This document shows, piece by piece, positions 22,900 through 45,888 of a DNA stretch of 64,000 bases. Source of the DNA: Kaistia hirudinis (lineage in GTDB: Bacteria > Pseudomonadota > Alphaproteobacteria > Rhizobiales > Kaistiaceae); the NCBI RefSeq assembly GCF_014196455.1, contig NZ_JACIDS010000001.1, positions 248,001 through 312,000 of the forward strand. Direction: 5' to 3'. Numbering within the stretch: the first letter of the stretch is position 1; each line of letters begins with the position of its first letter. The notes beneath the pieces are model-generated. The model was not told the origin of the DNA and searched no databases. It saw only the letters and a program-made list of their open reading frames with translations. A program made the position numbers and the translations under genes.

Positions 22900-23161
22900 T
22901 GGGGCGGGTCTTGCGGAGCTGGACGTCCGGAATGGGCGCGCGCTTCACCGCCTTGGCGCGTGAAGCTCGGCGCCGTTCTTCTAACCAGGCTTCGACCTCG
23001 GACAGATCCCAGACCACGCAGCGGGACGTGAGATAGAAGCGCTGGGGAAATTCGCCGCGCTGTTCCATGTCATAGATCGTGGTGTCGGCGAGAGGGACCA
23101 TTTCCCGGAGTTCATGCCGCCGGATGGTCCGCGTCACGGCAGTTTGTGCCTGTGGCTTCAT
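22877..23161 (-). CDS. AlpA-like helix-turn-helix regulator
   Basis: A 94-residue protein with an AlpA/MerR-type HTH: RRHELREMVPLADTTIYDME, then RGEFPQRFYLTSRCVVWDLS and EVEAWLEERRRAS, the standard AlpA pattern (regulators of island integrases in P4-like elements), followed by a basic tail (KAVKRAPIPDVQLRK). It converges on the integrase gene and overlaps its 3' end by 23 bases. Probable role: controlling integrase expression or excision directionality of the island. The 144 bases to the next gene are empty. Confidence 0.82.
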   Translation of the reverse strand: MKPQAQTAVTRTIRRHELREMVPLADTTIYDMEQRGEFPQRFYLTSRCVVWDLSEVEAWLEERRRASRAKAVKRAPIPDVQLRKTRPIKHPARA

Positions 23162-23305: not shown

Positions 23306-24067
23306 TCAGGCGGGGTGGATGATCTTGGTTTCAATTAATGCGTGCAGGTGGTCACGCAAACGGGACGGGATATGACCGCCAACGACGAGGACGCCTGCTT
23401 CCATGTTTTTTTCGAGCGCATGGCCGGTCAGATTCGCGCTCGTCAGGAAAGCCATGGCATCGTCGGCGACGGCGACCTTCGCGTGAACCCGGCCGTTGGT
23501 GAAAGGGTGTGGGCGATCCGTCCAGGCATACAATTTGGCTGATGGAACGGCGCCTCTCATCGTCGCTACCGGATCGACGAGGAGGCTACCGCCCTGGGTC
23601 AGGGAGGCCTCGACGAGAATCCTCACCTCGACTCCTCGAAGGGCCGCTGCGTTGATCGCGGCTATGACCGAGGGAACGTCATAGGCAACGAAGCTTACGA
23701 TGAAGAGCTCTTTGGTAGCCTGCTGGATGACATCCAGAAGCACCTGTTCGGTACGGCGCGGCGCGACGAATGGTGTCATTGGCCCGGTCCAGACCAATTC
23801 GACGGCGCAGTCTCGTTGCGTGCGCTCTCGAGCATGGGCGGCGCCCATCAGCATCCCAGCGACGAGCTCTCCTGATAACTTCGCGGCCTGCCACGTCCCG
23901 ATGAGCGACGCCAATGCCGCCCGGGCTGCCGGCGTACCGACGACTTTTTGGAGGTCTTGTTCTCGCCCCGGCGGCAGACCGTCTCGCAGCCGTGACGCTA
24001 TCGCGTCGATTTTCGAGGGCGGCAGCAAGGCCACGAGTTCGGTGACTGCATCCAGGAGCGGTTCCAT
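23306..24067 (-). CDS. drmC: DISARM protein DrmC (phospholipase D-like)
   Basis: A 253-residue protein of the phospholipase D superfamily. Seen: TKELFIVSFVAYDVPSVIAA, RGVEVRILVEASLTQGGSL and one complete HKD motif in GRVHAKVAVADDAMAFLTSA, followed by NLTGHALEKNMEAGVLV. DrmC is one of three genes (drmABC) shared by all DISARM phage-defence systems; it was reported as dispensable for protection in one system. It is the last gene of this operon. The start at 24067 shares one base with the drmB stop (TGATG). Confidence 0.87.
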   Translation of the reverse strand: MEPLLDAVTELVALLPPSKIDAIASRLRDGLPPGREQDLQKVVGTPAARAALASLIGTWQAAKLSGELVAGMLMGAAHARERTQRDCAVELVWTGPMTPFVAPRRTEQVLLDVIQQATKELFIVSFVAYDVPSVIAAINAAALRGVEVRILVEASLTQGGSLLVDPVATMRGAVPSAKLYAWTDRPHPFTNGRVHAKVAVADDAMAFLTSANLTGHALEKNMEAGVLVVGGHIPSRLRDHLHALIETKIIHPA

Positions 24068-25908
24068 CAGCTCCCCCGGAAGAACGCGGCGTTTGGATTT
24101 TCGAGCGTCGGAACCACCAACGCACGGTCCAAATGCCGATTTCCCCGTTCGCAAGACGTTTCCGACACGAAGGAGCAAGCGTGGCAAGCGGCTCCATGCA
24201 GCGATTGATCTTTACTGGGATCGTGTTCGGAGCACAGGGGATCGGAGGCGCAGACATGCGCTCGATCCAGTGCCTGGCGAAGCAGCCTTCCGAGATTTTC
24301 GGGCTTGCCCAATTCAACGAGACCACCGAGCGTTCCATCGGAATCGGCCGCCGCCGTGTAGATCAGGAAGCCGGCCTGGTCCTTCCCTCCTTCCACCTCC
24401 GCGTATATCCGTTCGCGGATGCTGGCGGCATTGTACCCACATTCGAGGGCCAACTCCCTGACCAGCATATGCGCCAGGGTATGGAGCATGACGTATCGCG
24501 CTCCGGGATAGCCCTCTCGCGGATCGAGATTCCGCTTTTGACGCCATCCACGATGACCAACGCGCAAGCGCGCATCGACCTCTTTGACCGCATCCTCATC
24601 GGCCCAGGCTTTCAGAGCATTGGCATCGAAGCGGATGAAAATGCCTTCGCCGTGAACCTGCGTCGCCGGCGCCCAATCGGGAGCCGAACGCCCCAGCGGA
24701 GCGCGAGGCGCCGCATCGTCACCCGATCCTTCGTCCGGGGACTCGACGCGGGTGAAACCGAGCAAGGCATTCACCTCGCGCAGCCGCTCCAGAAGCAGGA
24801 CGCGCGTGATCGCGGTCTCGAAGCCTTTCGGAACCCCGACCTTTTTGCTCATGAAATGCGGGTAGTCGGTCGGCGGATCGTCGGCCGTAAGAACTTGCCA
24901 CTCCGGCTCCTTGAGGTCGCTCGGGCCGATGTCCGCGCCTCCGTTCCGGTGGGCTTCGATGGCGGCCCAAATCTGCTCGCTGGTGAACTGCTCGATGCCG
25001 GGGAGCTGAGCCGTTTTCTTCAGCGTCTTGACCACGAAACCGACCTCATCGGCCGAGGAAACGTCCTCGAAGAAGGTCCAGCCGTCGCCGACGAGCTGCG
25101 CCAAGGGGCTGCCCGTTTGAGGAATGGCGAGGACCGACAACGTGACTGGGAACCAGCCATTGGTCGCGCCGAGCAGGATCGCCCGCGGATCTTCAGGGCA
25201 GTCATCGTCGAAACGATCGATGTGGGGATGCCGCCCGCGACATGCTGGCAGGTTGTCTCTACCGGCCTGACCGAAGGCTTGGGCCATGTTCTTCGATGCG
25301 CCACAAGCATCGCATTTGACCCAGAGATTCTCGGTTTGCAGCGATGCGCCGCTTTCGAAGAACCGCAGCGTCCCACGGCAATTGGATGGGCCACCGTGAA
25401 CGAACCAATGCCACGAGAAATCGTCCAAGTGTCCTGCGCGGCAGGCCATCAGGAAACGAGCCGGCACGGCATCGGCGTCTCGGGCTTTTTGATCGTTGTT
25501 CGATCCGCGACATCCCTCATGGACAAAGCGCGTCAATTCCGGCCGGTAGCGGTTTTCTTTCAGCTTGAACAAGCCGGCGTCGAACGGCGACAGCAAACCG
25601 CATTTCACGCAACGCAGCCATCGGGGAAACGGCTTCACCGGAACACCGATCAGCGCTGCGGGCGAAAACGGATCGACGACATCCCGGTCGCCGAGCGGCG
25701 GCATACGCAGAGATTCCACTTGGGGGCCGAGAACGCTTCGGACGTTCGCCAGCAGCCGCGCCTCCTGGATGGGCTGGCATCGATCCCTTTCCCAGCGATC
25801 GATACCCATGGTGACGACCGAGAGGTTGGGTAGATCGATCAAAGCGCCGGGGCCGTAAGTCCACAAAAGCTGGCTTGGACGGATTTCGCCTACGGGCGTT
25901 TTGCTCAT
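24067..25908 (-). CDS. drmB: DISARM protein DrmB (DUF1998)
   Basis: A 613-residue protein. The N-terminus PVGEIRPSQLLWTYGPGALI is characteristic of DrmB. The C-terminal DUF1998 domain starts near HTLAHMLVRELALECGYNAA (about residue 470) and contains a possible metal site (CASDPLC ... HGAACHACSF ... SCERGNRHLD), as in DUF1998 proteins that work with DUF1998-type helicases. In DISARM, DrmA and DrmB form a complex that binds DNA and acts against unmethylated phage DNA. Four bases overlap drmA (ATGA) and one base overlaps drmC. Confidence 0.92.
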   Translation of the reverse strand: MSKTPVGEIRPSQLLWTYGPGALIDLPNLSVVTMGIDRWERDRCQPIQEARLLANVRSVLGPQVESLRMPPLGDRDVVDPFSPAALIGVPVKPFPRWLRCVKCGLLSPFDAGLFKLKENRYRPELTRFVHEGCRGSNNDQKARDADAVPARFLMACRAGHLDDFSWHWFVHGGPSNCRGTLRFFESGASLQTENLWVKCDACGASKNMAQAFGQAGRDNLPACRGRHPHIDRFDDDCPEDPRAILLGATNGWFPVTLSVLAIPQTGSPLAQLVGDGWTFFEDVSSADEVGFVVKTLKKTAQLPGIEQFTSEQIWAAIEAHRNGGADIGPSDLKEPEWQVLTADDPPTDYPHFMSKKVGVPKGFETAITRVLLLERLREVNALLGFTRVESPDEGSGDDAAPRAPLGRSAPDWAPATQVHGEGIFIRFDANALKAWADEDAVKEVDARLRVGHRGWRQKRNLDPREGYPGARYVMLHTLAHMLVRELALECGYNAASIRERIYAEVEGGKDQAGFLIYTAAADSDGTLGGLVELGKPENLGRLLRQALDRAHVCASDPLCSEHDPSKDQSLHGAACHACSFVSETSCERGNRHLDRALVVPTLENPNAAFFRGS

Positions 25909-28900
25909 GCTTCACCCCCATCGGCCGGAGCGACGCGGGCTCGCCATGCAGGATCATTCGTCGAGCGCGAGTCTTCCATCACCAACCTCACGCCGGGCTC
26001 GACCTCCCGCATCGACATCGGAACGGTCCAATCCGTCCAAGGCTTCACGCCCGGCGTTTCCAGCAGGGGATAGGCCGTCGGGCCAGCCCCGTATTTCTGA
26101 TAGACGAGCGTGCGACCTCCGACGCCGGCCTCTTTGGCCCAATCGTCGGCGCGATGCTTCAGCTCTTGTTCGGTGAGCGCCTTCTTCGCCGAGTCCTCCG
26201 TGACCTCCCAGGTTCGTTCGGACACGAGGCCGATCGTCGTCGTCATCTCCGGCCGACTCGGGCTGTTCATCGCGCCCGCGCCCGTATTCGGCGCGAAGGG
26301 ATCGTAGGTATTCCGCATGATCGACAGCATGGCCCCCGTGAGGCCGCGATCCAGCGCTCGCGGAGAGAATGGCGTCACGGATTGAGCTTCGACGTGTTGA
26401 TAGAAGGTCGCGTGGTAGTGCTCGAACGTCTCGTAGTGGGAGAGGTCGCGCGGGCGTGCCCAGGTGAGCACGGTGGCGACCAAGCCCGGCGGCGAGCGCC
26501 CGACGCGACTGGTTGCCTGGATATACTCCGCCGTTCCTTTCGGCTGGCCATTGACGACCATCACGCCGAGACGGTTCACGTCCACCCCGACCGACAGCAT
26601 GTTGGTGGCCAAGACGACGTCGATCGGGCGCGGATCGCCGGGAGCCCGGTTCTCGACCCATACGCCCGTCTTGGGGTCGAGCGACCCATTGAACGGTATT
26701 TCGAGCTGATCGAGGTAGCGCGGGATGTCGTGGCTGGAGACGCGAGAGGTGAGTTCCCGGACGTCATCGACGCGACGTTGCGACAGCCCCGGGCGATCGA
26801 CCAAGCTCATGTTCACGCGGAAAGAGCGGGTTTGCACGTCGTCCTCGGCGAGGCGTTTCATTCCGCCCAACTCGCGTAGTGAATTGAAGTAACCGACGAG
26901 CGTCAGGTAGGGGTCGGCGACCGGACCGAAGCGATCGAAGAGGGCTTGTGCGGCGGTGAGGAAGGCCGTGTAGGTTCGGATCAAAACGGCGGGCCGGGAA
27001 CTGCCGGGCGCGCAGATACCCATGTAGCGGCGGCCAGGCTTCTCATCGATGGCGCGCTGAACCGAAAAGAAATTGTCCTCGACGTCGAGGCCGGTGGGCG
27101 GAAAGACCGATATGCGCCGCATGAATACATTGCGCACCTGATCTTCGGCACGTCGAACGGTCGCGGTCGATGCAACGACCTTCGGCCGAACTTTCGTGTC
27201 GCCGAGAAGCCAAGAACTCAGCTCGTCGACGGCGCTCTCGTAGAGGCCGACCATGGTGCCGAGCGGCCCGCTGATGAGGTGAAACTCGTCCTGGATGATG
27301 AGATCGGGAGGCCGGACGGCGGCGCGCACCGGCTTCACCCTCGCGGCGGAATGAGCGCCACGCGCGCGATGCCCGGTGCCGCAATCGTGTCCCGGCCAGA
27401 GTAAGCCGTGACGCTCGCATTCTTCATCGACCCGGCCGAAAAGAGTTCGTACCTCCGGCCGCCAGGCCATCATGGCGAACTTGTCGACGGTGGCGATCAT
27501 CATGGTCGGCGGGCGATGATAGATTTCCTCGTCGACCACCTTTACGGGCAGGCCGGGATGCGGGCGGCCGCTGGAGCCGGCCCGCGAAAATTCGCAGGCG
27601 CCGAGTTTGTCGCCGCAATGGATGAGGGTTCGGCCGACTATCCGGTCGACCTCGATGTCGCGGCCCGCCGAGATTTCGGAACCGCACCAGGGGCAGCTCG
27701 TCAATTGCGCCGGCGAAGCGATACCGGATCTGTTCCGATCGCCGTTCCGTAGCGCCTCGATCGCTTGGTGGGCATCATCGGTTCGGCCCGGCGTCACCCG
27801 ATTGCCAACCCACAGCCCCAGCGAGAAGGGCTCCTTGCCCCAGAGCTTCTCGTCGGCGCGACGGATCACTTCCATTGCGCATAAGAGGGCCGCAGCGCGC
27901 TGAAACTGTTGCAGGGTCAGCAGGCGCAGCGTGTACCGCATGATGACGGCCAGACCACGGGAGGCATCGAGGCCGCCGAGGTCGTCCTTCAATCGGCGCA
28001 TCGCCATGGCGAAGGCCGCCACGCCCAAATAGGCTTCGGTCTTGCCGCCGCCCGTCGGGAACCAGAGGAGATCGGCGAAGGCTTCCGCAGGCTTCGTCCG
28101 ATCGAGATGCGCCGGATCGGCGAGGGACGGCACCGACAACAGGAGGAAGGCTAACTGGAACGGGCGCCAAGACCGATTCCTCGGGATGTCGACCTGCGCG
28201 ACGTCGGCCGTCTCGCCGCGCCTGCGTTTGAGCGCATAGAGGCTCCGCACACGCTGGAGCGCCATCGACCTGTTGGCGAAGCGGAACGCCGATAGCGCCG
28301 CACCGTCGGAAAAGAGCGTGTCCATTCCCTCGCGCAGGCGGCGCAAGGTCTCTTCGCAGCGGGCGATCACGTCCTGCCCAGGATCATCGAAACCCGTGAT
28401 CTCGGCTTTCAGCCGCGTCCTCTGTTCACCGATCCAGACGGCATAGTCGTCGACCAGGCACGACAGGGCATCGCGCAATTGCTGCGGCTCCATCTCCGCG
28501 AGGCGGCCCATGTCGAGCCACCCTTCATTGACCATCAGGCGCATGGCCGGGCGGTCGTCCGGGTCGAGGCCCGGCGTTTCGGTGACGGCGACCTCATAGC
28601 GCGGGATGATTTCCGTGCGGAGGTGTGAAGCCTTCGCGGAATCACCCGGCGTCGCGTCGGCATGGACGGAGACGCCGTGGCCCACGGCGAACTCCAGCCG
28701 GTTACGATAGATCAGGGCTAGGCGATCGCGCTCCGGGTCATCGACGACGATTTCGTTGGAAGGGCGCCGTCTGAAGATCGACGGATCTGCCGCGCTTTCC
28801 GGCGCGGCCACAGAGATTTCCGGCTGAAATAGCCAAGCGCGATCCTTGTTGTCGTCGGGCTCCAGTTGGCCGTTCACGAGGAACAGGGTGACGAGGCGCT

Positions 28901-29885
28901 CCCCTTGGGCGTTCGTTCGGATCGTCCCTTGAAGCCGGACTTCGGGCTGGTCCCGATCCGGCGTCGCGGGGCGTATCGGCCCGTCCTTCAGCGGCAGGGA
29001 AACCACCCCACCGCACGGGATGCGCCGCCACACCCTGACCTTGGTTTCCTCCTCCCGGCCGGTTGCCCGGTTCTTGCGGGTCTTGATGACATCGTGCTCA
29101 TCGCTCGGGACGCGCTCGTAGCGTCCCCAACGGACATCAGCGGCCAGCGACTCCATGCCCGGCGCGACGCAGAAGGTGAGCCCCATGCTCGACGGCATGA
29201 GCGACTGATTGTTCGTGGTGTCAATTTCGTCGAGGGCGTCGTCTTCCGGCTCCACCCGACCGGAGACGCTGGCGAACTCGGCGCCGGGTTCGTGGACGGG
29301 CGCCGCCCGCTCATCCTCGATGTCGCGAATTTCATCCGCGCCGGCCGCAGGCTCGATGGCGACGGTATCCGTGTCGCCCGGCCGTCGAGGCGCGAGCTTG
29401 CCGACAAGGTAGCGGTCACGGACGCTCATGTCCTTGATAAGCTCGTGCGGCCCGCCGGCCGGGCCGAGAAGATCGTCGCGGACGGCTATTTCGAGCAGAT
29501 CGCGCACATAGGCGACGTCCTGGACGAGCGGAACATCGGCGATCGAAATGCCGTCCAGTGCGAAAATGCCCGTCAGATCTTCCGGCCGGAGCCGCGCGAT
29601 CGGGCCGGTCGGCAGCGTCAAGCCGAGGCCGGACACAGTGCCCGACGCGCGGAACGTATGCACATGATCGAAATAGATCGTAGTGGTGTCGAGATCACCG
29701 CGGATACGCAAAATCCGTCCGGCCCATGTCAGCGTGCCATCGGCTTCGGCAGCGACGATCCAGTGCCCTTCATCGACCGCCGAAAAGGTCGAACGCTCGC
29801 CGTTCAATCGAGCTACGCAAGGGCCGAGCCTAGTCGGTTCTTTGGCCAGCCAACTCTGCACGTCTGGATCAGTGGTCAAGGTCAT
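25905..29885 (-). CDS. drmA: DISARM helicase DrmA
   Basis: A 1326-residue superfamily 2 helicase. The P-loop is LLWFPTGGGKTEAYLGVAAF (GGGKT around 612-616), the DExH box is PDLIIQDEFHLISGPLG (around 865), and motif VI is EYIQATSRVGRSPPGL (around 1125). Between P-loop and DExH lies a Cys cluster (CPWCGSEI ... CGDKLGACEF) that could bind zinc. The first 500 residues carry a long variable region. DrmA is the motor of the DrmAB complex and the best marker of DISARM. The gene begins 21 bases after the upstream methyltransferase-like gene and overlaps drmB by four bases. Confidence 0.94.
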   Translation of the reverse strand: MTLTTDPDVQSWLAKEPTRLGPCVARLNGERSTFSAVDEGHWIVAAEADGTLTWAGRILRIRGDLDTTTIYFDHVHTFRASGTVSGLGLTLPTGPIARLRPEDLTGIFALDGISIADVPLVQDVAYVRDLLEIAVRDDLLGPAGGPHELIKDMSVRDRYLVGKLAPRRPGDTDTVAIEPAAGADEIRDIEDERAAPVHEPGAEFASVSGRVEPEDDALDEIDTTNNQSLMPSSMGLTFCVAPGMESLAADVRWGRYERVPSDEHDVIKTRKNRATGREEETKVRVWRRIPCGGVVSLPLKDGPIRPATPDRDQPEVRLQGTIRTNAQGERLVTLFLVNGQLEPDDNKDRAWLFQPEISVAAPESAADPSIFRRRPSNEIVVDDPERDRLALIYRNRLEFAVGHGVSVHADATPGDSAKASHLRTEIIPRYEVAVTETPGLDPDDRPAMRLMVNEGWLDMGRLAEMEPQQLRDALSCLVDDYAVWIGEQRTRLKAEITGFDDPGQDVIARCEETLRRLREGMDTLFSDGAALSAFRFANRSMALQRVRSLYALKRRRGETADVAQVDIPRNRSWRPFQLAFLLLSVPSLADPAHLDRTKPAEAFADLLWFPTGGGKTEAYLGVAAFAMAMRRLKDDLGGLDASRGLAVIMRYTLRLLTLQQFQRAAALLCAMEVIRRADEKLWGKEPFSLGLWVGNRVTPGRTDDAHQAIEALRNGDRNRSGIASPAQLTSCPWCGSEISAGRDIEVDRIVGRTLIHCGDKLGACEFSRAGSSGRPHPGLPVKVVDEEIYHRPPTMMIATVDKFAMMAWRPEVRTLFGRVDEECERHGLLWPGHDCGTGHRARGAHSAARVKPVRAAVRPPDLIIQDEFHLISGPLGTMVGLYESAVDELSSWLLGDTKVRPKVVASTATVRRAEDQVRNVFMRRISVFPPTGLDVEDNFFSVQRAIDEKPGRRYMGICAPGSSRPAVLIRTYTAFLTAAQALFDRFGPVADPYLTLVGYFNSLRELGGMKRLAEDDVQTRSFRVNMSLVDRPGLSQRRVDDVRELTSRVSSHDIPRYLDQLEIPFNGSLDPKTGVWVENRAPGDPRPIDVVLATNMLSVGVDVNRLGVMVVNGQPKGTAEYIQATSRVGRSPPGLVATVLTWARPRDLSHYETFEHYHATFYQHVEAQSVTPFSPRALDRGLTGAMLSIMRNTYDPFAPNTGAGAMNSPSRPEMTTTIGLVSERTWEVTEDSAKKALTEQELKHRADDWAKEAGVGGRTLVYQKYGAGPTAYPLLETPGVKPWTDWTVPMSMREVEPGVRLVMEDSRSTNDPAWRARVAPADGGEA

Positions 29886-29906
29886 GCGTCGCCCCCGAAT
29901 GAATCT

Positions 29907-30902
29907 CTACAGCTCGACGCGCGAGAAGTGTGGATAGATGCGGTAGAATTTCTTGAAGACCGTGATGGGATCTTCGCCCATGTCGGATTTGGGTAGTTTG
30001 AAGGCCATCTTCGCCCCAACTTCGTCGTTCGACTCCATCGTCAATCGCTCCAGCGTCGAAAGGGCGGGCAGGTCGAGACGATGGGGGGCATCCGGCGTGG
30101 AATTGAATTCCCACCCCTTCACGAGATCTCCAACAACGGCATCATCGGCAGCGCAAACTACGAGTGCTGCCGTCACCATTGCTTGGCCGTCTTTGTAGTA
30201 CGTGGCCAGCGCCCACACGATCTGCCGATCACGGAAGTTGAGCGCTTCCTTTTCGACCGCCAGCTTGAGAACGCGGAGCACGCTAAAGCCGAAGCGCTTT
30301 TGCGTCATATCCTCAGCGGATAGCCCACTCGGGAAGAGCTGCCCAACCCGCTCCTTGAAACGAGCAAGTCGCCATTCCTGTACGGTTGGCTTTTCCTTGC
30401 GATCGCCCGAGGCCGCACCGTCAATCTCGACAGAGACCTCATTGGCCTCCGGCTTCCCGAGAGACTCAGGGTTTGCGTTGAGCGTTACCCGAAGCACGCT
30501 GCCGAGCGGAACGGCGCCGATCGTCCGCGCGAAGCGTTCGATCTGCGTGGTGATGCCCCTCGGCTCGGTGTAGTCGAACCACACGATCGCGGGCACCTCG
30601 AAATCGATCCCGTCCAGGTAATCTTCGAGCGTTTTATGGACGCATTCGATCGACGCGACCGGGCGATTGAAGAGCTGGCGCTTGTGGACTTCCTCCTCGG
30701 TCTCGACGCAGGTCATCCGTTCGAGGCCGAGCCGGGCATGGACCAATCTGAAGTCTTCCAGAAAGGGGCCGCCGAGACCGACATAGTGGTATTTCTCCAG
30801 CGATAACGCTGGAGCCAACCGCATCAGTAGTGAGAGGAACAGTTCCCGATCGACGGCCTTGTTGGGCCTCAGCCGGTAGGGAAGCGAAGATCCGGCGCTC
30901 AT
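29907..30902 (-). CDS. Putative SAM-dependent methyltransferase in the DISARM operon
   Basis: A 331-residue protein not among the classical DISARM subunits. The N-terminal half looks like a Rossmann-type methyltransferase: PYRLRPNKAVDRELFLSLL, YHYVGLGGPFLEDFRLVHAR (glycine-rich turn after a beta strand, about 39-57), MTCVETEEEVHKRQLF (acidic end of strand 2) and VWFDYTEPRG (108-116) where a catalytic or SAM-contact motif would stand. It resembles the proteins filed as putative O-methyltransferase in defence loci, but I recognise it only by pattern. It starts three bases after the GHKL ATPase stop, so the two are probably one functional module. Confidence 0.55.
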   Translation of the reverse strand: MSAGSSLPYRLRPNKAVDRELFLSLLMRLAPALSLEKYHYVGLGGPFLEDFRLVHARLGLERMTCVETEEEVHKRQLFNRPVASIECVHKTLEDYLDGIDFEVPAIVWFDYTEPRGITTQIERFARTIGAVPLGSVLRVTLNANPESLGKPEANEVSVEIDGAASGDRKEKPTVQEWRLARFKERVGQLFPSGLSAEDMTQKRFGFSVLRVLKLAVEKEALNFRDRQIVWALATYYKDGQAMVTAALVVCAADDAVVGDLVKGWEFNSTPDAPHRLDLPALSTLERLTMESNDEVGAKMAFKLPKSDMGEDPITVFKKFYRIYPHFSRVEL

Positions 30903-30905
30903 GTC

Positions 30906-32321
30906 TCAGCCGTCCTGCTTCTGGGCCTTGGCGAGTGTCAGCTCGAAGCATTTCTCACCCACGATTCCCGGCTTTTCGTCGTCGATGTCGAACAGCATCT
31001 TGGAGACGAGCCGAATTTCCTCGGCGGGACGTGAGAACACGACCTTCCTCGACGACGGTGTTTTGCCCGGTGGTTCGGGTAGCACCTTCGCCTTTTGCGG
31101 ATTGAACTCAATTTGGCTGTCGCTCTTCTTGATGGTGCTGCGCGCAGCGACCGATGCGATCGCCTTCCCCAAAGAGAGCGGCTTCGCATCCTCCCAGTAG
31201 TTCGACTGATCGGCGCGCGGGTGGTTCTTCCACTGGTTGGTGTAGGAAATCCAGACCCGCATACCCTCCTTCATCTTCACCAGAGACTCGAGCCAGACGT
31301 TCGATGAGGTGTCGAGCGCGCGCTTGGTCGTCGTCACCGGCAACTTGTCGGCGCGCTTGGACCGGAACTCGACGATGCCGGTGAGGATGGCGAACTGCGG
31401 ATGGTACAGCGGAATGCCATCGCCCCAGCCGGTGAGGCGGCTCTTGTCGCCGACGATCACCGCGCGGTCGTTGCAGAGGACCGTCCAGCCAGCGGTCGCC
31501 GACGAGCGATCGCGCTCGAAGCCCGAGTCGTCATCATCGTCGTTGCCGAGGCTGCGTCCGGTGTTCAAGCCGACCGTGATCGAAACCAGCACGTCGTCGA
31601 TGGTCTTCTGAAAAACGAACGGCGCCGGCCCATCGTCGCGCTCCGACACCAGCACCTCGACGAGCACCGGCTCCACGGGTTTACCGTTGAGATCGACCTT
31701 AAGGCCCCACTGGAGGAACATCGTGAAATGTTCGGCAATGGCCGTGCGGACTTCGTTTTCGAATGCCTCGTTGGCGAAGTGTCTGGAGACGCCCTCGTAT
31801 AGTTCATCCACACGGATCACTGTGCCGGGCTCGGCGAGCTTCTCGCTGGCTTCCGTCGGCTCGTTGATCGGTAGTGGGTCCCATCCCTTGGCTTCAAGCC
31901 AGGCAGAAGTGATCGGCACCTCGAAGGTGTCGTCGCCATAACGGGTCCGCACCAGCGCCTCGCGGCCCATCTTGAAGATGGCGCGTTTCATGCCGACGCC
32001 ATACATGCCGATGGTCTCGGTCTCGGAGTCACGTTCGTCGTCTGGTTCGCGGCCCATCTTGAAGGCGTAGTTCTTGGCGACCTCGCGCGGGATGCCTCCG
32101 CAATTGTCTTCGATCGAGAAGTGGTCGGCGGCGAGTTCAATCTTCACGAAATGCTGCGCGTAATCGACATTGCCGCCGTCCGCCAACCGGAGCGCACCAT
32201 CGAGACAATTGTCGAGAAGATCGAGGATCGCGTCGGCGAGATTGATGTCGCGCGTCAGCATCGACACGAAGAACCGTTTGGTCGGGCTGGCCTGCGCCTG
32301 ATCGTTGGTGGGTTTCGTCAT
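30906..32321 (-). CDS. GHKL (Hsp90/MORC-like) ATP-binding protein in the DISARM operon
   Basis: A 471-residue protein with a Bergerat ATP-binding fold. The N box is ADAILDLLDNCLDGALR (about 29-45), the G1 box is IEDNCGGIPREVAKNYAF (70-87) and the G2 box is TIGMYGVGMKRAIFKMG (103-119). The following domain (IRVDELYEGVSRHFANEAFE onward) resembles the transducer region of MORC/Hsp90-type ATPases, which act as ATP-driven dimer clamps, often on DNA. No histidine kinase dimerisation domain is seen. It lies between drmMI (60-base gap) and the methyltransferase-like gene. It is not a standard DISARM component; its role there is inferred only from position. Confidence 0.8.
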   Translation of the reverse strand: MTKPTNDQAQASPTKRFFVSMLTRDINLADAILDLLDNCLDGALRLADGGNVDYAQHFVKIELAADHFSIEDNCGGIPREVAKNYAFKMGREPDDERDSETETIGMYGVGMKRAIFKMGREALVRTRYGDDTFEVPITSAWLEAKGWDPLPINEPTEASEKLAEPGTVIRVDELYEGVSRHFANEAFENEVRTAIAEHFTMFLQWGLKVDLNGKPVEPVLVEVLVSERDDGPAPFVFQKTIDDVLVSITVGLNTGRSLGNDDDDDSGFERDRSSATAGWTVLCNDRAVIVGDKSRLTGWGDGIPLYHPQFAILTGIVEFRSKRADKLPVTTTKRALDTSSNVWLESLVKMKEGMRVWISYTNQWKNHPRADQSNYWEDAKPLSLGKAIASVAARSTIKKSDSQIEFNPQKAKVLPEPPGKTPSSRKVVFSRPAEEIRLVSKMLFDIDDEKPGIVGEKCFELTLAKAQKQDG

Positions 32322-32381
32322 TGGCAGGCTCTCTCTTTGAGACGTGCGAATACGTTGAGATCAGTCGCGATGTCAGTGGTT

Positions 32382-35300
32382 TCAGTCATCGACGGCCTCC
32401 GCTTTGACGGCGCCGGGATTGAACAGATCGCCAACATCTCTGATTGAGCGCTTCCTGCCAGACGCAGATTTCTTTTCTGCTTTGTGTGAACCCGCTTTTA
32501 CCTCTTGCGCGTGGCGCTGGCGGTTCAGCTCTGACAACCGCCTCAGCACTTCTGCGCGTGCCGCCTCCGAGATGGTGAAGCGGACACGATCGCTCTCTGG
32601 AAGGTATGGAACTTCATGGAAACCATGCTGTAGATCAAGATCGTTCCAGCCGTAAGCGCTTACGACAGCGGCATCCATTGCTATGCGCAGATCACGAAAG
32701 GTACCTATTTCTTGATCACGTTCAGTGGGATTGTGAAATATGTTGTAAGCAGCGGTAATTCCAATCTGCCGAGATGTCAGAATATCTTTTCTGAAATTGT
32801 GATATTCTTTTCCAATCGAGTCGACATCACTATTATGTCCAATAATAAACGGAAAAGTTTCAAATGAATCGGTCAGGGTGTATCGAAGGGTATCTCCGAG
32901 ACTTGAGCTTGCCTGTCGTGCCCACGAATCGTGGATTGAGCTTTGCAAGCAGGCAAAGTCCTGCCAATTCTCCACATTCAAAATTCCAAGAGAGTGTTGG
33001 AATATCTGAAGTGAATCCACCTGAGAAATAGCAAGATATTTTGTGTGTAAGCACAAAACAAAGGTCGATTTGTTCTTGCGAATTGCCTTATAAAGTGCTG
33101 GCCGCTTATCTCCATGATGCCACCAATAAATGCGATGGGCATCGCGCCGAACCGTATCGCGCTGAGGTTTGACCAGATCCCGTACTATCTTCAAAGGCTC
33201 CGGGTATTTTTCTTCGCATTCCGAGAGGGAGCGATCTCGAAAATCAATTGCCCAACGACTGGCCTCTTGCGTTGGGTTGGTATTTATATCGCTGCCGCCA
33301 ATATATCGTAGGATAACGTCGGAATTATTCGGATTTATCTGAATGAGATTGGCAGCTTCCTCCCCGGAGAGGACGAAACCATTTCCAACCAGCACGGAGC
33401 CTTGGAAGCTGCGCCCTTTGTTCGCAAGTAATGGCTTCGGATCTGTCCATCCTGATTGAACTTCAAGTGATGACGAAATTCCGGCGACGCTAGTTTCGTC
33501 GAGAAGAAATCCACCTTGCCAGGCGTCCTTTTGGACGACTACCAGTGCGGTAACTACTGCGGCGCTACCTGGCCAACGAAAGGATGAGCGCGCATAGCGA
33601 ATATGATGTGAACCGTCGGCGATAATGCTGGCTAGACCTGTTCTGCCGGTGTCCCCTTCGCCGATGGACTTGGTGGCAATGAGGCCAAAAGCCCCGCCGG
33701 GTCGCGTGATTTGATTAGCTCTAAGAAAGAAAAAGGCGCACAAATCCGCGTTCAAGCTGGCATGGGGCCAAGTTGTCGTGAATGCACGCAAGCTGCCATC
33801 ACCAAGGGCAGCTCTCATCCGCCGACCGCCTAGGAATGGTGGATTGCCAATAATGGCATCAAATCCACTTTCATCGCCCAAAAAAACCTCCGGGAATTCG
33901 AGTGGCCAATGGATGGGGCGTCGTGCAGCCCTGTCGGGTGCGTCGTTTGCAAGGTCAGCCGTTGCCTGCCGCAGCAAGCGAATCCTGGCATTTGCATCGC
34001 CGCCTGCGGCCTCGTCGGCCATGGTCGCCAGTGTCGTAATTCTTACGGAGCGATCATCGGTCAGGACGAGACCAATAAGGGCGTCGGCGATCAGCCCCGG
34101 CAGAGCGAGTTCGCTACGCGATTGAGCGTCGAGCGCTGCCATCGCCTCGACATCGCCGATGTCGCGGATGGGAATCGAGCGAAGCTGGCTGCGAAGCGCG
34201 AGCGCCTTGTCGACGGCCGACCGGATCGTCCGGCCGAAAAGGCGAAGCTGCGCCTTGCCCTTTGGCTTCATTTCCAGCTCAATGAGTTGGCCGAGATCGT
34301 GGATGCCGAGCAGGCTATCGCCGCTGCGCAGGCTGTGATCCAGGAAGCCGAAAGGTCGCCCCTTGGCGAGCGTCGTCAGCCATAGCGACAGCTTGGCGAG
34401 TTCGACCGCGAGCGGGTTTTTGTCGACGCCGTATAGGCAGCGTTCGGCGATCAGGCGGCGCGCGAGGATGGCGCGCTCCTCGGTGTCGCGCGCCAGCGGC
34501 TCGAAACCGGCCGTGTCATCCACAGGACGGATGCGGCCTTCGTCGTCGATCCGCCCGCCCGCCGCTTCCATGTTGGACCAGGCTTCGACAAGTCGGTCGG
34601 CGAGCCAGCGGCAAGCCTGCACGAGGAACGCGCCCGATCCCATCGCGGGATCGCAGACCTTGAGGTCGAGGAGTTCGTCGGCGCTCTTGAGCTTCCAATC
34701 CTCGCGCGCCGCGCCTTCGGCCGGGCCGCGATAGACGATCGGCGTCAGCGTTTCTTCGACGATCTTCTCGGTCAGGCTCTTGGGTGTGTAGTGTGTCCCG
34801 CTCTCGCGCCGGTCGGCGCCGAGGACGACGACGAAAGCGCCGGCGTGATGGACCAGAGGGTATCCCCACGGGTCCGTCCGCAAGAGTTCGGCAAAGGGTA
34901 GGATGCGGTCGCGCAGGGCCACATCACCACGGCAGACGGTGAGCAACCGTGCCGCCACGCGCTCGTCCGGTTCCCGGCCGATGGCGTTGCGAATGGCGGG
35001 CTCGGAACGCTCGCTCCGCTCCTTCAGGAGATCGACGATCCTGGCGGCGCCGTCGAGGCGCGCGGACTCGATCTCACCGAGCGCGACGCGCGCATTCTTG
35101 GCCTTGGTCGATCCGTCGAGTTCGAGCGTCACGTCATCGACGCGCTGGACCGTGCGTTCGAGGAGTCCCTCATAGACGTGACCGATCTGTTCCACGTCGA
35201 GCGCGCGGTAGGACAGCGTGCGGCCCTCGAAGGTCTGGATCGCTTCCAGCAGGAGCAAGACCGTCCGGTCGTCGATCGGCAGGGGCTCGGCGGGATCGCT

Positions 35301-36425
35301 CCGCCAGTTCGTGCCCTTCTTGCGGCCTTCGAGGAAAGGATAGCGATCCGGGTCGAAGAGCGAGCCGCCCATCGCCGGCAGTCGCAGCAGCGAATGGTCG
35401 ATACCGCCATAGACGCCACGGAACAGGGCGAGCAGCCGCGACCATGCCGAGCGGCGGCGTTCGAGTATCTCCTCGGTGTCGGCGCGCAACTGCATCCGCA
35501 GGCTGGAGAGCGCGTAGAAGGCGTCGTAGCGGGGATCGCCGAGAAGGAGCAGGCCGCGCTCTTCCGCCGCCAGCAGGAAGACGAGCCGCATCATGACCGT
35601 GAGGCCGGCCTCGTAGAGTTCCTTAGGATCGACGTCGTGCAGCAGGTCCCGGTTGCGGTCCTGGTCGGCGCGGTCGAGGGATTGGACCAGCACTTCCACC
35701 GCGCGACGGACCTGTTCGCCGAGCGCGTCGGTCACGTCATCCTGATGCTTCAGCGACCGCTCGAACAGCGCCGGCAGCCTTTCGGCTTCGGGGCCGAAGA
35801 AGCGACGAACCCCGAGCAGGCTGACGAAGGCGCGGAGCGTTTCGGGCTCTTGGCCCCAGAGGCGGGCATACCAACTGGCGAAGCTCGCGACCGCGCCGGC
35901 TGGCGCATGAACGAGCATCCAGCGTTCGCCGTTGGTTACGAGACCGATCGGGCATCCGACGGCGCGAAGCAGCGACACCATGCGGTCGCCCGGAGTCGTC
36001 GCCAGCCCGTCATAATTCCGGGTGGCGTCGAGATCGGTGTCGGGATCGTAGAGCTGGACGAGCAACAGCGGGGCGTCGTCTTGGGTCGGATTGACGATCG
36101 CGAGGTCGGGCGCGATCGTGACGCCGTGCTCGGGCAGCGACACCTTCAGCCGCTCCGGCAAAGTCGCCGCCTGGCGCAAAACCTGATCGTCGACCTCCAG
36201 GGCGCTCTGGAGAACCTCGTCGATCCACGCCGAATGGATCGCCGTCAGGTCAGCATCGACCGCATCGACCGCATCGCGCCATTCGTCATAGGCAGCGCGC
36301 AGCCGCTGCGGGCGGCCGGAAATCAAGGCTTCCAATCCCTGGGGAAGCACGTCGCGCAGCACGGGCACCGCGAGGAACGGTCCCGACACCTCGATGAGGT
36401 TGAGCCAGTCGTGGTTGGTGCTCAT
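32382..36425 (-). CDS. drmMI: DISARM adenine-specific DNA methyltransferase DrmMI
   Basis: A 1347-residue Eco57I/PglX-like N6-adenine methylase that marks host DNA. SAM motif I is DPAMGSGAFLVQACRWLAD (around 595); catalytic motif IV is FDAIIGNPPFLGGRRM (NPPF around 860). The first 450 residues are the large N-terminal region typical of the family. Past the catalytic part, about 32650-33800, the DNA is clearly richer in A and T than the rest; this part should hold the target-recognition domain. ATG at 36425 shares one base with the drmD stop (TGATG); a TTG just before it is less likely. Confidence 0.92.
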   Translation of the reverse strand: MSTNHDWLNLIEVSGPFLAVPVLRDVLPQGLEALISGRPQRLRAAYDEWRDAVDAVDADLTAIHSAWIDEVLQSALEVDDQVLRQAATLPERLKVSLPEHGVTIAPDLAIVNPTQDDAPLLLVQLYDPDTDLDATRNYDGLATTPGDRMVSLLRAVGCPIGLVTNGERWMLVHAPAGAVASFASWYARLWGQEPETLRAFVSLLGVRRFFGPEAERLPALFERSLKHQDDVTDALGEQVRRAVEVLVQSLDRADQDRNRDLLHDVDPKELYEAGLTVMMRLVFLLAAEERGLLLLGDPRYDAFYALSSLRMQLRADTEEILERRRSAWSRLLALFRGVYGGIDHSLLRLPAMGGSLFDPDRYPFLEGRKKGTNWRSDPAEPLPIDDRTVLLLLEAIQTFEGRTLSYRALDVEQIGHVYEGLLERTVQRVDDVTLELDGSTKAKNARVALGEIESARLDGAARIVDLLKERSERSEPAIRNAIGREPDERVAARLLTVCRGDVALRDRILPFAELLRTDPWGYPLVHHAGAFVVVLGADRRESGTHYTPKSLTEKIVEETLTPIVYRGPAEGAAREDWKLKSADELLDLKVCDPAMGSGAFLVQACRWLADRLVEAWSNMEAAGGRIDDEGRIRPVDDTAGFEPLARDTEERAILARRLIAERCLYGVDKNPLAVELAKLSLWLTTLAKGRPFGFLDHSLRSGDSLLGIHDLGQLIELEMKPKGKAQLRLFGRTIRSAVDKALALRSQLRSIPIRDIGDVEAMAALDAQSRSELALPGLIADALIGLVLTDDRSVRITTLATMADEAAGGDANARIRLLRQATADLANDAPDRAARRPIHWPLEFPEVFLGDESGFDAIIGNPPFLGGRRMRAALGDGSLRAFTTTWPHASLNADLCAFFFLRANQITRPGGAFGLIATKSIGEGDTGRTGLASIIADGSHHIRYARSSFRWPGSAAVVTALVVVQKDAWQGGFLLDETSVAGISSSLEVQSGWTDPKPLLANKGRSFQGSVLVGNGFVLSGEEAANLIQINPNNSDVILRYIGGSDINTNPTQEASRWAIDFRDRSLSECEEKYPEPLKIVRDLVKPQRDTVRRDAHRIYWWHHGDKRPALYKAIRKNKSTFVLCLHTKYLAISQVDSLQIFQHSLGILNVENWQDFACLQSSIHDSWARQASSSLGDTLRYTLTDSFETFPFIIGHNSDVDSIGKEYHNFRKDILTSRQIGITAAYNIFHNPTERDQEIGTFRDLRIAMDAAVVSAYGWNDLDLQHGFHEVPYLPESDRVRFTISEAARAEVLRRLSELNRQRHAQEVKAGSHKAEKKSASGRKRSIRDVGDLFNPGAVKAEAVDD

Positions 36426-39400
36426 CAAGGCTGCCCCTTCGTCAAGGACTCGGGCACGAGCAGGATGACCGCGACGGGAAAAGTGTGGTCCCGGACATTG
36501 GAATACCTGTTCTCGATGGCGCGCACCTCTTGCTCCCGTTCCAGCGGAATACGGGCGAGGCGCGCTTCGAGAGCCGCGTGATCGCGTCGGAGCTGGGTGC
36601 GCTCGTCCTCGGAGAAGAGCGAGAGCTGTTGCGGCTCGCGGTCGGCGACGAGTTCGGCCCGCAGGGCCTTGTCGAGATCGTCGAGCACCTGCCGGATATC
36701 GTCGCTCTCCCGTTCCTTACGGGTGTCGATCGAATTGGACAGGAAGCGCAGGCGGTCCTTGGAGCGTGCATCGACCGATCCCAACACTGAGTCACGCTGC
36801 TTATCGAAGCGCGTGCGCAGCGCCGCGAAGGTCGTATCAGGCAAGACGGCGGGGGAGGAATCCTGGAGCCATCGACGCACCTCTGTCACGCGGTCTTCGC
36901 GGCGGAAGCCGGTGTCACGCAGATAACCGCCGGCCTCGGTGAGTTCCTCGTGCAGGCGATGATGGCTGCCGCCGGTGATGACCAATCGAGAAACCACGAT
37001 GACGGCAGGGCCTTCGATCTGGCCGTCGGGTAAAGACCGGGCGGAGACGCGGTGAATCTTCTTCACGTCGTCCCGCGCCCAGATTTCGGCGCGCAACAGG
37101 CGCAGGCTCATCTGGACGAGAGGGTGATTGAGATGCACCAGGACGACGTCATCGCGCCCCTTCGCCACATCATGGTCGAACGTGATGGGGCGGACCTTCT
37201 TCGTATAGGGATGCTCCAGACCTTCCAGGCACCGCGTCCATGAACCGGACAGCGCCGGCATGGTGAAGACGGTTCCATCTGGAGCCCCCGGCAGAGACGT
37301 GGCCCCGAGGTCCGGTTTGTCCGAAAGACGCAGTGCCGCTCTCACGGCTCGTTCGATGTGATCGGGCGTGAGATTTTGCTCGCGCTTGGTCTCGGCGAGG
37401 CGTTCGTGCAGCTTCGCGACCCGATCCCGGAGATCGCGTTCGGCTCTGACGAAGCGCCGCGATTTTTCCATGCGGGCTTCGGCCAGCCGGGTATCCAGGT
37501 CGCGCCGACGCCCCTCGATCAGGTCCGGGAGCTGTGGGGCGATGACCGGGTTGACGCTCCCCATGTCGGCCCGCATGGCGTCGAGCTTCCGAAGCGCTCG
37601 CAGGATGTCCTGTCCGTGATCGCCTTCGTCATCAACCGGATGCCAAATGACCACCTCGCTGGAGCGTTGGCCGTGACGGTCGATGCGCCCGTTCCGCTGC
37701 TCCATCACGTTAGGATTGTATGGAATTTCCAGATGGATCATCAGGTGGCAGTGGTTCTGAAGGTCGATGCCTTCGGATGCCGCGTCGGTCGCCAGCAGGA
37801 TTCTGACTGGCGATTCCGAAGGGTTGGCCTGGAACGCCGCCTTCACGGCCTCACGTTCATCGTGATCCATGCCGCCATAGATCAACGCCAGCCGATCGCC
37901 GCCGAAGCCGTGCGACACGAGCGTCTCTTGCATCCACTGCTGCGTCGTCCGGTATTCGGTGAACAGGATGACCCGCTCATTCGTCCATTCGCCGCCCTCC
38001 TGGAGATGCTCGACCAGCCACTCCAATATCGCGCGCGCCTTAGAATCCGCCCTGCGTGATGCTTGCTGCGCCCAGGAGCGCAGGCGTTCCAGCATCCGCC
38101 GCTCTTGCTCACTGGGCGGCCGGATGTGTTTGCCGGCTTCGCTGAGCGCGTCGTCTTCCGCCGCCTCGCGCAATGCGTCGTCGGCATAGTCTTCTTCGGC
38201 CTTCGATATGGCGCGGCGAAGGATGCGATCATCCAGCTTGCGCCTGGTCTGGTCGGCCGACGAACGACCTTCGATCGTCGCAATGTGCTTTTCCAGCGTC
38301 GCCGCGAACGCGGCGGGCGACGATGCGAGGCGCTTGCGCAGCAATTGGTGGACGAAGCGATCGACCGCTCGGGCGCCCCCCTCGCCATTCTCGCGTGACG
38401 ATATGTAATCGCCGAGAAGATGCCGGATCTGCCTCTCGTCATCTTCATACTTGATGGGGAGCCCTTCGAGACGCCGCACCGGGTAAAGTCGCTTGCCGTT
38501 CGCATCCACCAAGTCGCTTTTCAGCCGCCGCACCATGACCCGAGCGCGCTGGGGCTCGCTTGGCAGTACGTTTCGGGCGAAGCGTTGGTCGTCGAGCAGT
38601 TCGAGCAGAGCGGTGAACGACTCGGTGTAGCCGTCATGGGGCGTGGCGGTGAGAAACAGCTTGTGCTGGAAATGCGGCGCGAGCAGTCGCACCAAACGGG
38701 TTCGGAGGCTCTCGACCGCATAGTGCCCGACCGTGGGCGCGATGTTGTGCGCTTCGTCGATGACCAGCAGATCGAATTTTCGAGGATGGGTGACGGTGGG
38801 CGGCAGCGCGTCCCGGAACAGGCGCAGCCCTTCGCCTTGCTTCACCCAATCCATCGACGTGATGAGGAGAGGAAACGACGTCCACGGATTGGCGTGCAGG
38901 CCGCGTTCACGGCGTAGGCGCTTGACGAACTCGGTATCGACGATGCGGAAGTCGAGACCGAATTTCTCCTGCATCTCCGTGCGCCACTTCTCCTGAAGGG
39001 ACGCTGGGCACAACACCAACACAGTGCGGGCACGATGGCGCAGGAGCATTTCCTGGATCACCAGGCCGGCTTCGATCGTCTTTCCGAGGCCGACGTCATC
39101 CGCGATGAGCAGGCTGGTACGGGCCATGTCGATGGCTCGCACCAATGGATCGAGCTGGAAGTCCTCGATGCTGACGCCGCTGCGGAAAGGAGCCTGAAGA
39201 TAGGCCCTGTCGGCGTTGGTGGCGGCGCCCCATCGGACGGCATCAAGGAACGCCTGTAGGGAGGCCGGATCGTCCAAGCCGGTGATGCGCGGCAGGCCGG
39301 CTCGCTCAATGACGTGCGCGCCGGGCTCCAACTCCCAAAGGACTTCGATTTCCTCCCCGAGGGCGTCTTCGTCGATCGACGTCAATCGGATGAGGTGACG

Positions 39401-39544: not shown

Positions 39545-39966
39545 TGCAGCCCGCCCCCACCTCGAACGACGTTTTCGATGCGTTCGGCCGCTTCGCCGGC
39601 GCGCTCATGCGCCCATACGCGAATGACACGCCAACCCGAAGCACTGAGGCGTCGATCGGTATCCGCATCTCGGGCGCGATTGGCTTCGATTTTATCACGC
39701 CAAAATTGCGCGTTGCTCTTCGGCCAGGAGGCGTGCTCCGGGCATCCATGCCAGAAGCAGCCATCGACGAAGACGGCGACCCTGATGCGGGGAAACACGA
39801 TGTCGGCGACGCGCCTCGGCTTGGTCAGCAGCGGGACTTGCAAACGATAGCGTAGCCCTCGGGCATGCAGTTCCTTGCGCAGCGAGAGTTCGGCGTCGGT
39901 GCCCTTCTGCCGCACTCGAGCCATGCGAAGGCTCGCCTCATGCGACGAGGGACTTACGCGCGACAT
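39541..39966 (-). CDS. vsr: Very short patch repair endonuclease Vsr
   Basis: A 141-residue Vsr-type endonuclease, which nicks 5' of T in T:G mismatches made when 5-methylcytosine deaminates. Seen: LRKELHARGLRYRLQVPL, VADIVFPRIRVAVFVDGCFW, HGCPEHASWPKSNAQFWRDK and GWRVIRVWAHE. The catalytic Asp and His residues of the family fall in VFVDGCFWHGCPEH. Start is uncertain: ATG 39966 overlaps the end of the methylase gene by 29 bases; ATG 39924 would start just after it. Pairing with a C5-cytosine methylase is the normal context. Confidence 0.9.
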   Translation of the reverse strand: MSRVSPSSHEASLRMARVRQKGTDAELSLRKELHARGLRYRLQVPLLTKPRRVADIVFPRIRVAVFVDGCFWHGCPEHASWPKSNAQFWRDKIEANRARDADTDRRLSASGWRVIRVWAHERAGEAAERIENVVRGGGGLQ

Positions 39967-45875: not shown

Positions 45876-45888
45876 CGGCGCGTCCTCG

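Follow-up and report, generated by a model that had tools for sequence, protein, structure and literature searches.

A MORC-type ATPase and a methyltransferase-fold partner form a two-gene unit found in a class 1 DISARM lineage and in compact C5-methylase loci

The window analysed here, a stretch of 64,000 nucleotides from Kaistia hirudinis (contig NZ_JACIDS010000001.1, positions 248,001 to 312,000), carries a class 1 DISARM operon in which two additional genes lie between drmMI and drmA. The one transcribed first, at 30906..32321 (-), starts at an ATG and encodes a GHKL ATPase of the MORC type with 471 amino acids, as assigned from its open reading frame (ORF), Pfam family PF13589, motifs, conservation, an AlphaFold2 (AF2) model and Foldseek. 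The other, at 29907..30902 (-), also starts at an ATG and encodes a protein of 331 amino acids with a class I S-adenosylmethionine (SAM) methyltransferase fold, assigned from Pfam family PF20553 (Methyltransf_35), an AF2 model and Foldseek; we refer to it as MT35. By ORF coordinates, three bases separate the two genes (30903..30905, -), 60 bases separate drmMI from the GHKL gene (32322..32381, -) and 21 bases separate the MT35 gene from drmA (29886-29906, -). All other joins between drm genes in the window are overlapping. A first-pass annotation had already described a GHKL ATPase gene and a methyltransferase-like gene three bases apart at this junction, and both ORFs are present as described.

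In order of transcription the operon reads drmMII, vsr, drmD, drmMI, the GHKL and MT35 genes, drmA, drmB and drmC, named via PADLOC and NCBIfam models. All of these genes are on the reverse strand. The C5-cytosine DNA methylase gene drmMII (39938..41029; PADLOC, Pfam PF00145) is the only match to PF00145 in its own genome. It is followed by the vsr endonuclease gene (39541..40008; TIGR00632, 115 bits, cut-off 97.85), by drmD, encoding an SNF2-like helicase (36425..39544; NF038317, 1362 bits, cut-off 610), and by drmMI, encoding an adenine methylase of the MmeI/Eco57I type (32382..36428; PDLC02643 at an E-value (E) of 0, and Pfam). Beyond the pair are the helicase gene drmA (25905..29885; NF038325, 1440.7 bits, cut-off 950), drmB for a DUF1998/MZB protein (24067..25908; NF038324, 756.1 bits, cut-off 240) and drmC for a PLD-family protein (23306..24187; NF038319, 251.4 bits from residue 51, cut-off 133), whose likelier start, judged from the ORF, is the ATG at 24067. 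The class 1 core (drmA, drmB, drmC, drmD and drmMI) is complete in the window, and every gene scored with NCBIfam exceeds its model cut-off. The identical set of nine genes, in identical order, is found on plasmid pR24_2 of Microvirga terrae.

The GHKL protein matches PF13589 (HATPase_c_3) at E 6.8e-9 and 36.3 bits (cut-off 25). It contains an N-box (DLLDN), G1 (DNCGG) and G2 (GMYGVGMK) motifs, a MORC motif (GWTVLCNDRAV) and an S5-type TTTK. Residues D34, D37, N38, D72, G75, G76, G105, Y107, G108, G110, K112 and T331-T332-K333 are invariant in 67/67 aligned proteins. The S5-domain signature GhXhhpXXRhl, by which Iyer et al. 2008 (PMC2292703; this and the other cited papers are drawn on in part) unite the MORC proteins of eukaryotes with those of prokaryotes, was found by pattern in 88 of 91 GHKL rows, three duplicate rows counted, and is absent from L015, L069 and L074. 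Over about 425 columns the AF2 model (pLDDT 82.8, pTM 0.76) aligns with the ATPase cassette of MORC3 (TM 0.49/0.53), a span that may include an S5-fold domain after the GHKL domain, but the Hsp90 family is ahead by E. Pfam finds no nuclease domain in the protein. Motifs and model support an ATPase of the prokaryotic MORC type by motif and of the Hsp90/MORC type by fold, with ATP hydrolysis predicted. The earlier proposal of an Hsp90/MORC-like ATPase is thus supported by the signature and by the fold.

MT35 matches PF20553, described as 'Putative O-methyltransferase', at E 8.6e-81 and 272.1 bits (cut-off 27), and the family is matched by 74/74 aligned MT35 proteins, including the window copy. 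Its AF2 model is of higher scores (pLDDT 90.8, pTM 0.89), and the best Foldseek match in the Protein Data Bank (PDB) is the tRNA methyltransferase Trm1 (3axs; E 1.8e-7, TM 0.44), followed by other SAM methyltransferases. The fold search returned 602 PDB matches at E<=0.001. The 50 that were listed are, with few exceptions, named as methyltransferases. Y9, R12, K15, R19, Y40, D50, R75, W108, D110, T140, Y236 and D238 are identical in 74/74 proteins, and position 67 is Glu or Asp in all of them. No solved sequence relative was detected in the PDB, where the sequence search gave 0 matches and the MT35 profile a single match at E 0.16. A scan of viral contigs gave 0 confirmed relatives of MT35, and a viral fold search returned assorted methyltransferases. 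The predicted structure identifies MT35 as a class I Rossmann methyltransferase fold, in agreement with the methyltransferase-like character first suggested for the 331-residue protein, and the use of SAM is predicted.

A scan of the genome collection with a GHKL profile found 389 relatives. Only the 80 most similar to the window were kept, and DISARM is therefore over-represented in the locus sample. Counts refer to 86 distinct loci (L013, L014, L016, L017, L020, L022 and L023-L102). L018, L019 and L021 were removed beforehand because their sequences are the same as those of L101, L051 and L027, and so was L015, where a short GHKL protein of 248 amino acids without MT35 counts as a miss for pairing. 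The 86 loci comprise 25 DISARM and 61 stand-alone loci, with L020, which has only a 22-bit DISARM match, classed as stand-alone. An MT35 gene lies within 500 nt of the GHKL gene and on the same strand in 83 of the 86 (25/25 DISARM and 58/61 others; the MT35 gene of L064, split by a frame break, was scored as present). At the 83 loci where both genes are present, they most often overlap by 4 bases (34 loci) or are set 3 bases apart (21 loci). When MT35 alone was the bait, the GHKL gene was adjacent at 7/7 MT35 loci in other genomes. PF20553 is rare, occurring in 2/289 genomes of the class, 5/398 of the phylum and 3/28 of the family, with the own genome counted within each. A C5 methylase is present in the stretch in six of the seven other genomes, and DISARM in one (L027). 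The alternative that the two genes are chance neighbours was rejected, given this adjacency and the nine-gene order matched in Microvirga. The GHKL and MT35 genes are a two-gene unit. Neither window protein matches a PADLOC-DB 2023 model at E<=0.01, and a search of that database with 67 GHKL and 74 MT35 proteins gave only four marginal single-member matches (best E 0.0035).

The unity of the pair is also seen in how its proteins diverge. We compared pairwise protein distances gene by gene across 26 DISARM operons, length limits reducing the rows to 21 for DrmMII, 19 for Vsr, 23 for DrmD and 25 each for DrmMI and DrmC. The GHKL and MT35 distances correlate with a rho of 0.88, a value that 0 of 2000 permutations reached, and 70% subsamples gave 0.78-0.92. 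Correlations with DrmD, DrmMI, DrmA, DrmB and DrmC are 0.27-0.44 for GHKL and 0.19-0.31 for MT35. Those with DrmA are weaker than that within the pair but still above chance (GHKL 0.41, 0/2000 permutations as high, subsamples 0.25-0.64; MT35 0.26, 15/2000). The values with DrmMII are 0.56 for GHKL and 0.41 for MT35, and with Vsr 0.36 and 0.31, whereas DrmD, DrmMII and Vsr correlate with DrmA at 0.93, 0.77 and 0.82. The idea that drmMII, vsr and the pair form one inseparable DISARM block was therefore rejected: DrmMII and Vsr track the backbone and the pair does not.

One operon, L045, makes the separation explicit. Its backbone is of the beta type (clade support 100), with DrmD, DrmA and DrmB 92, 85 and 84% identical to those of L031, whereas its GHKL and MT35 proteins match their L044 counterparts at 85 and 90% identity. 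L043, L044 and L045 form one clade in both the GHKL and the MT35 trees, and holding L045 with the beta rows was rejected for GHKL (p-AU 1.4e-12) and for MT35 (p-AU 3.3e-6). Sequence comparison thus plainly indicates that the pair of L045 was replaced as a unit, from another lineage than its backbone. The result of the combined swap test is carried by this operon. For the backbone genes of L039 the highest identities to another operon are 43-67%, compared with 79% for GHKL and 84% for MT35, which is suggestive of a pair that is also decoupled from its backbone. The two genes seem capable of passing together from one defence cluster to another. That the two genes belong together, as first surmised from their spacing, is thus upheld by adjacency, by correlated divergence and by the joint foreign origin of the pair in L045.

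Most of the sampled relatives, 61 of the 86 distinct loci, are outside DISARM. A C5 methylase lies within 10 kb in 54/61 stand-alone loci and 23/25 DISARM loci (the exceptions, L026 and L038, are cut short upstream), and Vsr within the same distance in 28/61 and 18/25. In the subset of 36 stand-alone loci flanked by at least 5 kb on each side, the methylase lies within 10 kb in 33 and Vsr in 19. Chance alone would not be expected to produce such neighbourhoods, given that drmMII is the one C5-methylase match in the own genome. The order of the genes varies, with methylase, GHKL and MT35 in line or with GHKL-MT35 tail to tail with the methylase. Across 51 stand-alone loci, distances correlate at 0.63 between GHKL and MT35 and at 0.62 between GHKL and the methylase. 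Some stand-alone loci, L040, L046, L048 and L050 among them, end near the pair on one side, so the lack of DISARM genes there is only partly seen. The pair is the unit of a compact, mostly stand-alone system around a C5 methylase, with Vsr in about half of the loci. The first-pass annotation had named an occurrence mostly outside defence loci as what would count against its reading, and these methylase and Vsr neighbourhoods speak to the contrary.

Vsr was absent within 10 kb from 33/61 stand-alone loci, including 17 of the 36 well-flanked ones. A nuclease scan covered 20 proteins, namely 19 nearby genes from 13 of these 17 loci (not L020, L060, L064 and L069) and one recurrent L051 gene. In nine of the 13 sampled loci, the one or two nearby genes scanned showed no restriction-type nuclease family. 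Among these possibly nuclease-free loci are L049, flanked by a sulfatase and a HAD hydrolase, and L095, flanked by an integrase and a pyocin activator.

Several stand-alone loci have further features of their own. In L096, where Vsr is lacking, an HhH-GPD glycosylase gene (8055-8810) shares a 4-base overlap with the start of the C5 methylase ORF. Such a glycosylase, like Vsr, fits the repair of deaminated 5-methylcytosine (5mC), and it is possibly a substitute for Vsr in this locus. The cyanobacterial loci L054 and L078 have GHKL-MT35 beside genes of proton-antiporter type, and no C5 methylase was detectable there within 10 kb. Near the C5 methylase of L053 (8234-9874), L060 (13755-15446), L082 (13008-14753) and L094 (1021-2853) lies a gene for a further GHKL protein, distinct from the first, which in L053 also has a Hypoth_Ymh domain. 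This arrangement resembles the co-occurrence of paraMORC1 described in 2008 (PMC2292703).

The phylogenetic trees, which are quick ones with SH-aLRT support only, place the DISARM-linked copies together. In the GHKL tree (87 rows) the DISARM label takes three changes, against a mean of 22.7 when shuffled (0/500 as low). All 26 DISARM rows, the window included, are on one branch of 28 rows (support 98). Rows L040 and L046, in both of which the contig stops shortly past the pair, complete this branch. The stand-alone loci L042, L048, L049 and L050 lie outside it. Together with L040, these four have methylases of the drmMII type, scoring 422 to 542 bits against the window drmMII, compared with at most 93 bits in other stand-alone loci, and their copies are scattered among the DISARM methylases in the methylase tree. 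The pair copies linked to DISARM are essentially one lineage. In a tree of DrmD, DrmA and DrmB (37 rows) the 26 pair-bearing operons cluster. Given that these rows were found via the pair, and the pair-less ones without it, this tree informs on clustering and not on frequency.

Other class 1 DISARM loci were located without recourse to the pair. DrmD is above its cut-off in 7/398 genomes of the phylum, the own included, and 0/5 of the other assessable loci have the pair (the sixth, L136, ends inside drmMI and was left out). The pair is likewise present in 0/4 of the plasmid DISARMs opened besides that of Microvirga, hits H9 and H10 being left out, and three further DrmA loci of the class are without it. 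The own and Microvirga loci aside, 0/9 unbaited class 1 loci opened carry the pair. The pair as an invention specific to DISARM is rejected on this count together with the 61 relatives outside DISARM. The earlier suggestion of a new DISARM accessory module stands in part: the pair is a real unit inside DISARM, but it is not specific to DISARM. We read this most readily as the capture, by one class 1 DISARM lineage, of a compact self/non-self module that relies on 5mC and is made up of a C5 methylase, a MORC ATPase, a SAM-dependent partner and often Vsr.

The junction at which the pair resides looks like a cargo slot. The join between drmMI and drmA is a 4-base overlap in the pair-less L134 and L147, and the join between drmMI and the GHKL gene is a 4-base overlap in the pair-bearing L013, L030, L038 and L039. 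Other cargo at the drmMI-drmA junction comprises an HTH-ImmA/IrrE peptidase gene with a PIN-like gene in L138 (16047-17684) and L139 (14953-16599), XisH-XisI in L148 and a GIY-YIG gene in L149. Pfam identifies the peptidase of L138, and its L139 counterpart and the PIN-like genes were named by eye. An AspBHI-type restriction endonuclease gene, with AspBHI-N and Mrr catalytic domains by Pfam, lies between MT35 and drmA in L031 (12424-13629), and an ORF similar to it occupies the same place in L037 (12429-13631). The pair-less class 1 DISARM of Deinococcus sp. AJ005 plasmid p96k (L147; L151:9547-13256) has a different GHKL protein of 664 amino acids, a C5 methylase and Vsr beside drmC, which suggests that GHKL ATPases joined DISARM more than once.

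The flanks of the window operon point to a mobile element. A tyrosine integrase gene (21637-22899, +) and a gene for an AlpA-like regulator (22877-23161, -) lie beside drmC and together (21637..23161) are probably one end of a mobile element bearing the operon. An ORF directly upstream of the integrase (stretch 19762-22899, +) looks like the GMP synthase gene guaA, a probable site of island integration. On the other side, an N-terminal fragment of the conjugation ATPase TrbE (45111-46001, -; model positions 1-240 of 815) and a ParB-like gene alongside (46581-48644) are perhaps remnants of a conjugative element beside the DISARM operon. An ArdC-type protein, of a family of anti-restriction factors, is encoded about 8 kb from the operon (48747-49697, -; ArdcN E 1.6e-42, MPTase-PolyVal E 1.9e-52).

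With regard to function, we tentatively favour, with a confidence that stops just short of even, a self/non-self system formed by the C5 methylase, the MORC-type ATPase and MT35, in which the pair acts as clamp or blocker and provides a second arm within DISARM. In this scenario, drmMII would mark self DNA with 5mC and Vsr would repair the T:G mismatches that arise from 5mC deamination. A GHKL dimer would serve as an ATP-gated clamp on DNA without the self mark, and MT35 would be its obligate SAM-using partner, which would either work on the nucleic acid held in the clamp or determine which state the clamp is in. In the stand-alone form it is the pair that would restrict, by blocking, and a nuclease may not be required. 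In the DISARM form it may be a second sensor or blocker that shares the drmMII mark, alongside the DrmAB helicase, whose proposed activating substrate is unmethylated 5'-overhang DNA (PMC9142583). In the GHKL-nuclease fusion VcSduA, the ATPase is required to stop phage (PMC12137116). A bolder form of the clamp reading, which we regard as improbable, is restriction without cutting: a SAM-licensed, ATP-driven clamp would lock or compact DNA lacking 5mC and block its replication or transcription, as a forerunner of MORC silencing. The three-gene form would then have no nuclease, and DISARM would have taken the system up as a replaceable second arm.

Several observations weigh against the clamp reading or the evidence beneath it. 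MutL and MORC proteins have Glu at the catalytic general-base position, whereas the GHKL protein has Asp (D34) in 67/67, so ATP hydrolysis could be weak. Foldseek with the GHKL model ranks Hsp90/TRAP1 first by E-value, with SMCHD1, MORC3 and MORC2 lower, and all matches of its sequence profile in the PDB were marginal (endoplasmin E 0.011, topoisomerase VI 0.019, MORC2 0.44). At 7/61 stand-alone loci no C5 methylase was seen within 10 kb: these are L020 and six loci of cyanobacteria, of which four are cut short on one side. The pair-less L134 (drmMII-vsr-drmD-drmMI-drmA-drmB-drmC) is nested among pair-bearing operons in the tree of DrmD, DrmA and DrmB (support 100), where either the pair was lost or a pair-less junction was regained by recombination. 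L047 has a drmMII 86% identical to that of the window and a pair of only about 70% identity, so the pair need not match drmMII. A second swap, in L033, was considered and is not established (p-AU 0.25 for GHKL and 0.04 for MT35). Lastly, four of the 13 sampled Vsr-less loci have a nuclease family nearby (HNH_2, McrBC with type I R, Eco29kI, DUF559), and an HNH_2-domain gene family recurs near five distinct loci, so a dedicated nuclease stays conceivable. With no restriction-type nuclease family seen among the genes scanned at the other nine loci, a nuclease-free mode of the stand-alone loci is possible.

It is also possible, if unlikely, that the pair is an accessory dedicated to DISARM: the clamp would be coupled to MT35, and MT35 would label self DNA as a third DNA-modifying enzyme. 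The methyltransferase fold of MT35, its conserved pocket-side residues, its best fold match Trm1, which modifies a nucleic acid, and the position of the pair inside the operon with short spacers are all in keeping with this. However, 61 of the 86 relatives are outside DISARM and 54 of these are already near a C5 methylase, a pair-less DISARM with both drmMI and drmMII exists (L134), and a site-specific DNA methylase of 331 amino acids with no target-recognition domain in evidence would be unusual. That Trm1 is a tRNA methyltransferase could instead favour a guard or abortive-infection cassette that fires when DISARM or the C5 methylase is disturbed, with tRNA, rRNA or another host target for MT35. 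Such a cassette would fit the other cargo in the variable drmMI-drmA slot (L138, L139, L148 and L149) and the replacement of the pair as a unit in L045. We find it doubtful, given that the methylase stands by the pair in 54/61 non-DISARM loci, which is the pattern of restriction-modification, and that stand-alone GHKL and methylase distances correlate (0.62, 51 loci).

The presence of vsr beside drmMII in the window, and of Vsr within 10 kb in 18/25 DISARM and 28/61 stand-alone loci, raises the question of whether the GHKL protein acts like MutL, as an ATP-dependent activator of the Vsr nuclease, which would be the restriction enzyme, with MT35 in a regulatory role. An analogy of this kind was drawn for MORC loci in Iyer et al. 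2008 (PMC2292703). We nevertheless consider it quite unlikely: no Vsr was seen within 10 kb in 33/61 stand-alone loci (17/36 of the well-flanked ones), and in DISARM operons Vsr tracks DrmA (0.82) and not GHKL (0.36). Moreover, Vsr is expected beside a C5 methylase in any case, simply for the repair of deaminated 5mC.

Whichever reading is correct, the MORC ATPases of restriction loci are now tied to DISARM, and a small unit (C5 methylase, MORC ATPase, PF20553 protein and often Vsr) is defined across many phyla, its ATPase and PF20553 genes having no good match in PADLOC-DB. DISARM operons that bear the pair, have had it replaced or are without it offer natural comparisons in which its contribution is directly testable. 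If the minimal form indeed restricts DNA without a nuclease, it would be a bacterial model of MORC silencing in animals and plants.

Class 1 DISARM, described in Ofir 2018, reportedly consists of drmD, drmMI, drmA, drmB and drmC. The window operon has all of these core genes and differs from class 1 DISARM in the two genes at the drmMI-drmA junction and in vsr. Its C5 methylase drmMII is shared with the Serratia system (Bravo 2022, PMC9142583). DISARM-like backbones with varying accessory genes are also a feature of the YprA-family systems ARMADA, BRIGADE and TALON (PMC12458937), in the main text of which GHKL and HSP90 have 0 occurrences; the DrmA and DrmB of the window pass DISARM models.

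The occurrence of MORC ATPases in restriction-modification loci has been known since 2008. Iyer, Abhiman and Aravind (PMC2292703) described MORC and paraMORC ATPases in such loci together with C5 methylases, Vsr and, except in a minority of the loci, superfamily II helicases, and characterized them as laterally mobile. The window GHKL protein resembles those MORCs in its GHKL domain, its GhXhhpXXRhl signature and its C5 methylase and Vsr neighbours. The text of that paper, in the portions available, mentions no methyltransferase-fold partner of this kind, Figure 2 may draw single operons of this type, and DISARM was named later. In the open-access literature we found nothing on a link between DISARM and MORC, on the PF20553 (Methyltransf_35) partner or on the pair as a DISARM accessory; the DISARM link and the PF20553 partner appear to be what is new here.

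Other systems combine similar parts. The HEF_HK and Response_reg_2 pairs (Bellieny-Rabelo 2021, PMC8011034) likewise have a GHKL ATPase of HATPase_c_3, an adjacent alpha/beta partner and frequent C5 DNA methylases, but the partner of the window ATPase is of another family, and PF19191 and PF19192 were matched by 0/9 scanned window proteins (E<=0.1). A putative defence system of a Z1 domain, a nuclease and a C5 methylase (PMC9523054) likewise brings a MORC-family protein to a C5-methylase locus, with different core genes, and DISARM is merely a benchmark in the portions of that paper available. Another parallel in phage defence is GHKL-Shedu VcSduA of Vibrio cholerae, a paraMORC3 protein with a GHKL ATPase that is needed against phage and is modelled as a clamp-like dimer (PMC12137116). 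In VcSduA the nuclease is fused to the ATPase, whereas the GHKL protein of the window has no nuclease domain by Pfam and is instead paired with a partner of methyltransferase fold.

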